Of a DNA stretch of 24,266 nucleotides, positions 5,828 through 6,921 are shown piece after piece. Source of the DNA: a virus; IMG/VR virus record IMGVR_UViG_3300037541_000074, positions 1 to 24,266 of that record; one strand, 5' to 3'. Made by a program: the position numbers and the translations under genes. Under the pieces are notes generated by a model. It did not search any database, was not told where the DNA came from, and saw nothing but the letters and a program-made list of their open reading frames with translations. Numbering within the stretch: the stretch's first letter is position 1; each line of letters starts with the position of its first letter.

Positions 5828-6136
5828 ATGTCCCCGACCCAACGCTCCCTGAAGTACCTGCGCGACCAGGGGTATAGGTGCTGGATTGTGGAAAGGTGGT
5901 GTCCCTACTCCCGCAAGCGGATAGACCTGTGGAACTGTATCGACATATTGGCGGTTGGCAACGGGGAGACCATAGGGGTGCAGACCACCAGCAGGGGAAA
6001 TGTTGCAGCGCGGGTCAAGAAAATCGAGGAAAACGAGTATTTTCCAGAGTTGGTTCGGTCTGGGTGGAAAGTCCATGTCCACGGGTGGGGGAAATTAAAG
6101 GCGGGCTGGACAATAAAATTGGTTGAACTTAACTAA
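5828..6136 (+). CDS. Putative PD-(D/E)XK-like nuclease family protein
   Basis: 102 aa. MSPTQRSLKYLRDQGYRCWI, then an acidic pair D33 and D39 (RIDLWNCIDIL) and the strand VQTTS (51-55), where a canonical nuclease would show E-x-K. This family is common in phages and prophages; a restriction-endonuclease-like fold is suggested by the D...QTT layout, but the lysine is missing, so activity is doubtful. First gene of the rightward operon; its ribosome site is weak (AAG only) and lies in the operator-like repeat, hinting at repression or low expression. Confidence 0.55.
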   Translation: MSPTQRSLKYLRDQGYRCWIVERWCPYSRKRIDLWNCIDILAVGNGETIGVQTTSRGNVAARVKKIEENEYFPELVRSGWKVHVHGWGKLKAGWTIKLVELN

Positions 6137-6150
6137 ATCCGTGGTATCCT
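6123..6150 (+). promoter_or_regulatory. Sigma70-like promoter for the structured RNA
   Basis: TTGAAC (6123-6128), 16-nt spacer, TATCCT (6145-6150). Each box matches the consensus at four of six positions. It overlaps the end of the 102-aa gene and would start a transcript near 6157, just before the first hairpin of the non-coding region. Confidence 0.5.
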
Positions 6151-6156
6151 AGCGTT

Positions 6157-6320
6157 GTCAGCGGTGTGGCAACTGCTGGAACGAAAGCGTTAAGCATCAG
6201 TAAGCCCATATAAGTCTAGGGCGTGTGTAAAGCGGTAACTGATGAGTTTTGGCTTGACGCCTCATTCGTTCCTACTTTGCTCATGCCAAGAGCCACGCTC
6301 TAGTCTTATGTGGGCTTTTT
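6157..6320 (+). ncRNA. Candidate structured non-coding RNA ending in a long U-tailed hairpin
   Basis: No protein reading is supported here. Hairpin 1: CAGCGGT (6159-6165) with ACTGCTG (6172-6178), 7 bp, one G-U. Hairpin 2: AACG (6180-6183) with CGTT (6188-6191). Then a 24-bp stem pairs 6202-6225 with 6294-6317, with only one mismatch and two G-U pairs; the differences between the arms preserve pairing. Its 68-nt apical part can form a further branch, GATGAG with CTCATT (6241-6266). A T-run, TTTTTCTTT, closes the 3' side at 6316-6324, making a plausible terminator. It matches no RNA family I recognise. The length and strand are inferred from the promoter and T-run. Confidence 0.5.
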
Positions 6321-6520
6321 CTTTGGCTGACCGCTACCTAGTCGTCGGCGAAAGACGGCAGGGCTAGATGGCGATAAGGGTACTGTGGGCAGCGTTGGAA
6401 TACCCTAACCTGGCGGCGAAGTTAGCACCAGAACGCGAAAAGGCTAACGAGTCCTGTGGCTCCGAAAGTGCAGGTAAAGGACGGATAGGCTAAGGCTAAG
6501 TCCGTCCACCAAAAGTGCAG
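6321..6520 (+). other. Second hairpin-rich non-coding segment
   Basis: About 200 nt without a gene, upstream of the 124-aa nuclease-like gene. Visible stems: CGCTACCTAG (6332-6341) with CTAGATGGCG (6364-6373) enclosing a TCGTC/GACGG hairpin; AGGGTA (6377-6382) with TACCCT (6401-6406); GTTAGC (6421-6426) with GCTAAC (6443-6448); CCTG (6453) with CAGG (6471); and GGACGGA (6479-6485) with TCCGTCC (6501-6507). AAAGTGCAG occurs twice (6465 and 6512). GAAA-type loops recur. It could be a continuation of the upstream RNA, a 5' leader, or an origin of replication. Confidence 0.45.
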
Positions 6521-6546: not shown

Positions 6547-6921
6547 ATGTATAGGAATAGAGAGTACGGTAGTCAGCTAAAGGACTTCTCAGGGTTGAGA
6601 TGGGGTGCAATATCCCCGACAGATGTGGATGCCCTGCTAGAGTTCTCTAACCGACTGTTTATCATTGTCGAGACTAAGTACAAAAACTCGCCCATTCCTC
6701 GTGGACAGCTTCTAGCCCTAGAACGGGTCTGCGATGCCATAAACGACCCCCCGCATAAACATTGCCTGATTCTCCTGACCTCGCATGAGTCGTCTGGGGA
6801 TATAGACATGGGGTTGACCACGGTTACACAAGTCCGCGAGAATTGCAATTGGCTAACAGAAATCCCAGAAATCACCCTGCGCGAGGCGGTAGATATTTAT
6901 AGGGGTAAGTACCTAGGATAG
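6547..6921 (+). CDS. PD-(D/E)XK-like nuclease
   Basis: 124 aa. SPTDVDALLEFSNRLFIIVE (23-42) runs into TKYKN, placing D26/D28 before a beta strand that ends in E42-T-K44, the D...ExK signature, with a following Q54 in RGQLLALER. This suggests an active metal-dependent nuclease of the VRR-NUC or Holliday-junction-resolvase-like group. AAGGGAGGA ribosome site just before the ATG. It follows the structured non-coding segment, which could act as its leader. Confidence 0.6.
   Translation: MYRNREYGSQLKDFSGLRWGAISPTDVDALLEFSNRLFIIVETKYKNSPIPRGQLLALERVCDAINDPPHKHCLILLTSHESSGDIDMGLTTVTQVRENCNWLTEIPEITLREAVDIYRGKYLG

Follow-up and report, generated by a model that had tools for sequence, protein, structure and literature searches.

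The window, i.e. the whole stretch of DNA analysed here, is the 24,266-base IMG/VR virus record IMGVR_UViG_3300037541_000074 from an uncultivated phage. Two + strand ORFs in it, at 5828-6136 and 6547-6921, are separated by a gap of 410 bases, in which a preliminary description had placed a non-coding RNA at 6157-6320 between two nuclease-like genes. No ORF of at least 60 amino acids lies inside 6157-6320, in agreement with a non-coding stretch; the label nuclease-like was not borne out, as Pfam and PHROG gave no match for either flanking gene. Downstream of the gap, the ORF at 6547-6921 is followed by early-operon genes for replication-initiation-like, PAPS-reductase-like, NinB, RecA-dependent-nuclease-like and YqaJ proteins. 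The RNA itself is larger than previously described, spanning 6157-6331, and is the first of two RNAs that lie end to end, here referred to as RNA1 and RNA2 (Table 1). From 5' to 3', the order is promoter, P1, P2 5' strand, P3 5' strand, P5 (with part of the P2 3' strand in its loop), P4, P3 3' strand, U-run, P0 3' strand and RNA2.

Table 1 Features of the RNA1 locus (positions in the window)
Feature	Position	Strand	Evidence and remarks
Promoter	6123-6150	+	-35 TTGAAC 6123-6128, 16-nt spacer, -10 TATCCT 6145-6150; start expected near G6157
RNA1, whole	6157-6331	+	Fold z -3.87, covariation, no Rfam family; sRNA form expected to end at ~6318-6322
P1 hairpin	6158-6179	+	Loop UGGCA 6167-6171 complementary to UGCCA 6284-6288 of the P4 loop
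P2 5' strand (GGAACGAA, GCGUUAAGC, AUCAGU), hypervariable	6178-6201	+	Cognate pairing beats swapped partners
P3 5' strand (long U-tailed stem)	6202-6225	+	99.4% of cells paired, compensatory changes
P2 3' strand: ACUGAU 6238-6243, GCUUGACGC 6252-6260, UUCGUUCC 6265-6272	6238-6272	+	
P5 small hairpin, AUGAG with CUCAU	6242-6246 with 6261-6265	+	Covaries in type C; in the window seen in sequence only
P4 hairpin, GCUC-AUGCCAA-GAGC	6279-6293	+	Invariant in 28 type-A relatives, save one optional loop base
P3 3' strand (6294-6317) and U-run UUUUUCUUU, intrinsic-terminator-like	6294-6324	+	Sequence and fold
P0 3' strand, GCUGAC	6326-6331	+	Pairs with the RNA 5' end 6157-6162; 100% of cells paired
RNA2, Betaproteobacteria-1 RNA (RF02932)	6334-6452	+	80 bits, E 1.6e-13; abuts RNA1
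First downstream gene of the early operon	6547-6921	+	124 aa, no family match

The stretch at 6157-6320 had been matched to no RNA family, and the Rfam search agreed: there was no match near a gathering score even at E 5, and the best weak Rfam 15 matches were rli36 (17 bits; cut-off 50) and STnc490 (13 bits; cut-off 56). RNA1 gave no match to the GOLLD and ROOL models nor, at E up to 5 and among such models as Rfam holds, to IsrK, P4 CI-seqA or C4-type RNAs. The gathering score of RF02932 (49.4 bits) was passed by RNA2 only; RNA1 is not covered by this match and is thus not a member, the Betaproteobacteria-1 RNA being a separate family although the two abut. Several relatives resemble the window in having RF02932 next to RNA1; elsewhere other RNA2 modules or none are found. 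Conservation runs on past the RF02932 model to ~6508, with further hairpins. Just after RNA1 in L203, L208, L293, L152 and L007, other RNA2 modules (e.g. CCGNACTCCGNNCG...) replace the Betaproteobacteria-1 RNA; those scanned had no Rfam match and could be a further RNA family.

Relatives of RNA1 were drawn from viral contigs via the downstream gene, the promoter, the upstream gene and pattern scans for short conserved hairpins. About 150 related stretches were obtained in three sequence types, which have a common architecture and different sequences: 96 of type C, 43 of type A, to which the window belongs, and 17 of type B. Two type-B candidates (L357 and L359) were discarded as chance matches in which the rest of the element is absent. 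A convincing copy of RNA1 was absent from 84,980 bacterial and archaeal genomes, 50,697 phage records and 72,556 plasmids searched by exact pattern or blastn, and blastn of cultured phages and plasmids gave no close relative; the bacterial exact-pattern matches L327 and L328 lie within coding genes and are due to chance. A covariance model of type C found one place per record, besides its own antisense, in 20 of 24 records, and one contig carries the element at both ends. In the window, this model picked 6157-6332 at a weak 23 bits, compared with 24-37 bits for the antisense of true copies; that types A and C are homologous is indicated chiefly by their common architecture and place. RNA1 stands at the head of the early operon in every relative with readable context, across different phages; the upstream genes varied, and early genes were common to the downstream operons, in which the NinB-like and methylase-like labels of relatives were assigned by sequence rather than by profile scan. 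An earlier description of RNA1 was not found in the literature searched, in which coverage of subscription journals was thin. RNA1 appears to be an undescribed RNA family present in many uncultivated phages.

The sigma70-like promoter proposed for this RNA is a modest match in the window (8 of 12 consensus positions) and was not flagged by a simple promoter scan; it is borne out by the relatives: of 90 distinct upstream regions, 68 have a -10-like hexamer with exactly 6 nt between its end and the 5' G of the RNA. A -35-like hexamer mostly lies 16-17 nt further upstream. Moreover, the fixed -10 spacing was also seen in relatives with an unrelated upstream gene.

The fold of 6157-6330 has an energy of -68.2 kcal/mol compared with -51.0 ± 4.4 kcal/mol for dinucleotide shuffles (z -3.87; none of 200 was as good). 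In the 24-bp stem that had been noted at 6202-6225 and 6294-6317, here P3, 23 of the 24 pairs form, with a U-U mismatch (6215/6304) and two G-U pairs, and the T-run reported to follow the stem is present. P3 and UUUUUCUUU together resemble an intrinsic terminator, in that the stem is GC-rich and a U-run comes directly behind it in the direction of transcription; the loop measures 68 nt, contains inner helices and is too large for a simple terminator scan, hence the terminator was not listed. The arms had been said to differ in sequence and yet pair, and among the 28 type-A sequences 99.3% of cells are paired, with compensatory changes. Likewise, in 60 type-C sequences, with P1, the P2 core, P3, P4, P5 and the loop contact counted, 93% of helix cells pair compared with 83% in shuffled and 29-51% in slid alignments, and 21 pairs changed on both sides, although many relatives share history and the cell counts are therefore not independent events. 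None of 500 shuffles equalled the pairing percentage or the covariation score of type C, and covariation among homologues, which the preliminary description had named as a check, is strong. In L245 (2509-2654) and L184 (4780-4927), an ATG directly follows the U-run, and AAGGGG of the P3 3' strand is a possible ribosome-binding site, so that the stem might control translation too in these two cases.

P2 comprises 23 pairs in the window, between 6178-6201 and 6238-6272, with a duplex energy of -28 to -29 kcal/mol; it abuts P3, and the two helices overlap in the manner of an H-type pseudoknot. When the partners of P2 were swapped, none of 2000 swaps in type A was as good as the cognate pairing (-28.2 kcal/mol compared with -18.1 kcal/mol for swapped partners), nor was any of 1000 swaps in type C. 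Mean pairwise identity in type C was 0.49-0.50 for the P2 core compared with 0.77-0.82 for the P3 arms, while P4 was invariant. The central positions of the type-C core take all four Watson-Crick pairs with few wobbles; many cores have the form GGC-NNNN-AC, paired with its complement, and some cores reappear on different backbones. Near-invariant loops beside a helix with all four Watson-Crick pairs per position make an unusual contrast. G-U exchanges on the + strand are abundant in basal P2 and in P3 and point to a + strand RNA. In the P2 core, G-U and A-C numbered 12 and 15 in one class, with 7 of the 15 in one mismatch column; G-U does not clearly outnumber A-C, so that the core itself may be selected as RNA or as DNA. 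The P2 core is a hypervariable, self-complementary "barcode", the two strands of which vary in step, much as a tag for self-recognition would. A role of the barcode as antisense to another site in the same phage was considered and rejected, the longest shared words having a mean of 7.97 compared with 8.09 for swapped controls.

Two small hairpins had been proposed upstream of P3. The 5' one (6158-6179) is real, with four of seven P1 pairs changed on both sides within type A; by contrast, the second (~6180-6191) is not conserved and its bases belong to P2. The P1 and P4 loops are complementary in each type, as UGGCA/UGCCA in type A and as UGAC/GUCA in type C. The P5 loop displays the middle block of the P2 3' strand. 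In P0, one pair changed on both sides, and none of 300 swaps of partners across types was as good; moreover, in L343 and L345 a change of GUCAGC to GUCAUC is answered in both partners, i.e. in P0 and in P1. Basal P2 shares a strand with P5, and P0 shares one with P1. These helices cannot all form together, and both members of each couple are conserved, which is the pattern expected of a two-state RNA. In total, covariation across many relatives supports the earlier picture of a phage RNA that is structured, promoter-driven and U-tailed and belongs to no known family; P2, the loop-loop contact, P0 and RF02932 had been missed.

From the position of RNA1 as a leader before the replication/recombination operon and from its mutually exclusive helices, a regulatory role is the best inference, and RNA1 may act by controlling termination. 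Specifically, we give an even chance to RNA1 being a terminator-ended leader attenuator of the early replication/recombination operon, which would also yield an sRNA and in which P2 would compete with the terminator stem. RNA polymerase would start near 6157, and P2 would form on the emerging RNA, keeping the 5' terminator strand in the P2 loop. Once made, the 3' strand (6294-6317) would compete for the 5' terminator strand, and the outcome of this competition would decide between a stop at the U-run, giving an sRNA of ~164 nt, and read-through into RNA2 and the operon. In the read-through RNA, the 5' end could re-pair beyond the U-run, forming P0 while P1 dissolves. We regard this co-transcriptional competition between P2 and P3 and the re-pairing to P0 as evenly poised between true and false. 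In prefix folding of the growing transcript with a pseudoknot-free model, P2 is present at ~0.9 from 6275 to 6306 and P3 instead at 6314; the model does not allow pseudoknots, and P2 and P3 might coexist side by side, which could make RNA1 a rigid RNA rather than a switch.

Any bias of the proposed attenuator would act on P2, and the most economical candidate for its source would be a second copy of the same RNA. The P5 loop of a second RNA1 would show the barcode to the matching nascent strand and block P2; accumulating RNA1 would thereby shut its own operon down, amounting to dosage control. That another RNA1 copy directs such a bias is possible, if doubtful. Self-recognition in trans via the barcode, for incompatibility or superinfection control, is a plausible hypothesis. 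Lysogenic immunity as a general role is unlikely because a tyrosine integrase is present in two of 24 records, some of which may be fragments. Very tentatively, and with more doubt than belief, we suggest that RNA1 might serve mostly lytic phages for kin recognition at the RNA level. The leader of one genome would recognise leaders that share its barcode and no others, and would turn off their replication operon; copy number would thereby be controlled and superinfection by the same type excluded, and new barcodes would arise through frequency-dependent selection. Should specificity lie in the barcode, nature would offer in RNA1 a set of mutually independent RNA attenuators.

RNA1 could instead be a stand-alone sRNA, the terminated form of which is directed at a protein or at some target in host or phage, with read-through incidental and with P2, P3 and the kissing loops just stabilising the fold. 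It has its own promoter and U-tail, and near-invariant exposed loops such as AUGCCAA are what a binding site would have; however, RNA1 always heads the early operon where context is readable, matches to the barcode at other sites of the same locus do not exceed chance, and the variable part is self-complementary rather than target-complementary, and we consider a stand-alone sRNA unlikely. That RNA1 is no more than an intrinsic terminator or insulator separating two genes, without regulation, is very improbable: GC-rich stems with a U-run are common between genes, but an insulator needs neither its own promoter, nor kissing loops, nor a covarying P0, P1, P2 and P5, and in type C the P3 sequence is conserved while that of P2 is not. 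For a function at the level of DNA, with the inverted repeats selected as a cruciform, replication origin or recombination site, one could cite the almost purely Watson-Crick barcode core, with no clear excess of G-U over A-C, and the replication genes that follow. The + strand G-U exchanges in basal P2 and P3, the orientation of promoter and U-run, and the complementarity of single-stranded loops argue against it, and we give it hardly any credence.

The HK022 put RNA has no terminator of its own. It is a cis-acting RNA near an early phage promoter, ~70 nt long with two stem-loops, and functions as an antiterminator (PMC9378689). A put-like leader, making RNA polymerase resistant to downstream terminators, would agree with the place of RNA1, which like putL and putR (PMC9378689) comes immediately behind an early promoter, and with the phage operon that follows. 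By contrast, RNA1 is 175 nt, pseudoknotted and terminator-ended, with a conserved terminator-like stem, a U-run and a hypervariable helix, none of which antitermination needs; it fits less well with put, and we find this reading improbable. RNA1 could also be structural or act in assembly, self-assembling as GOLLD/ROOL do or forming a pRNA-like part, with P2 pairing between molecules and the barcode preventing co-infecting phages from mixing. Long stems with short connectors make an intramolecular double pseudoknot tight, and homo-oligomeric phage-associated RNAs are known, according to the part of the source available (PMC12286853). The GOLLD and ROOL models are without a match, however, and the P2 strands lie close within one molecule and would fold on each other first, making a structural RNA quite improbable.

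Other leaders were seen in these contigs. In most of L294-L326, downstream of the homologue of ORF 5828 (~2830-2930), a different leader has a segment such as CTCATCAC that can pair with GTGATGA or GATGAG immediately ahead of the start codon; all three segments change together between phages, and the leader looks like a translational switch. In L292 and L322 (~2820-2930) lies another leader that ends in a terminator and follows the same logic in a different sequence, with GTAGCTGTC/GACAGCTAC overlapping GGCCACTTACT/AGTAAGTGGC and TTTTTT. Divergent type-B relatives lie behind near-consensus promoters in L360 (4257-4414) and L361 (near the minus-strand match 2327-2347), with P2 barcodes of their own (CACCAG/CTGGTG; TACACATCAAA/TTTGATGTGTA). 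Finally, just after the ORF 5828 homologue in L275 and L284, a fourth RNA type without a U-run leads straight into a replication-like gene and has a covarying pair, GGACAG/CTGTCC versus GGTTAG/CTGACC.

Among known systems, the P1-type C4 RNA is grouped with the P4 CI-type immunity RNAs. In P4 immunity, as outlined in the portion of the source available, the CI RNA with seqA and seqC is a terminated leader that acts on the read-through transcript (PMC4825925). As far as that portion goes, RNA1 resembles P4 CI/seqA and C4 in being an untranslated leader before replication genes, with complementary segments on the same strand and termination as the proposed outcome; unlike them, it has its pairing partners inside one terminator loop, and no sequence relation to them was found. 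Also unlike P4, most carriers of RNA1 have no tyrosine integrase. IsrK of the Salmonella prophage Gifsy-1 is described in the same portion as a phage leader sRNA with its own promoter, an intrinsic terminator and partial read-through downstream, which activates translation of its own read-through mRNA in trans (PMC4825925). By contrast with RNA1, IsrK is prophage-borne, the two are not linked by an Rfam match, and no hypervariable helix is described for IsrK in that portion. On the same basis, IsrK and, as proposed, RNA1 are both promoter-driven phage leaders that are terminator-ended and partly read through.

In the plasmid antisense attenuators, such as those of pT181 and pIP501, competing helices decide termination before replication genes, and the antisense RNA is made from the opposite strand. 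Swapping of the recognition sequence in such attenuators gave orthogonal versions, according to the part of the source available (PMC3753616). RNA1 differs from them in that both strands of the variable helix lie within one RNA. It is like them in having competing helices ahead of replication genes. If its specificity does come from the barcode, RNA1 would be to lytic phages what incompatibility is to plasmids, in RNA form.
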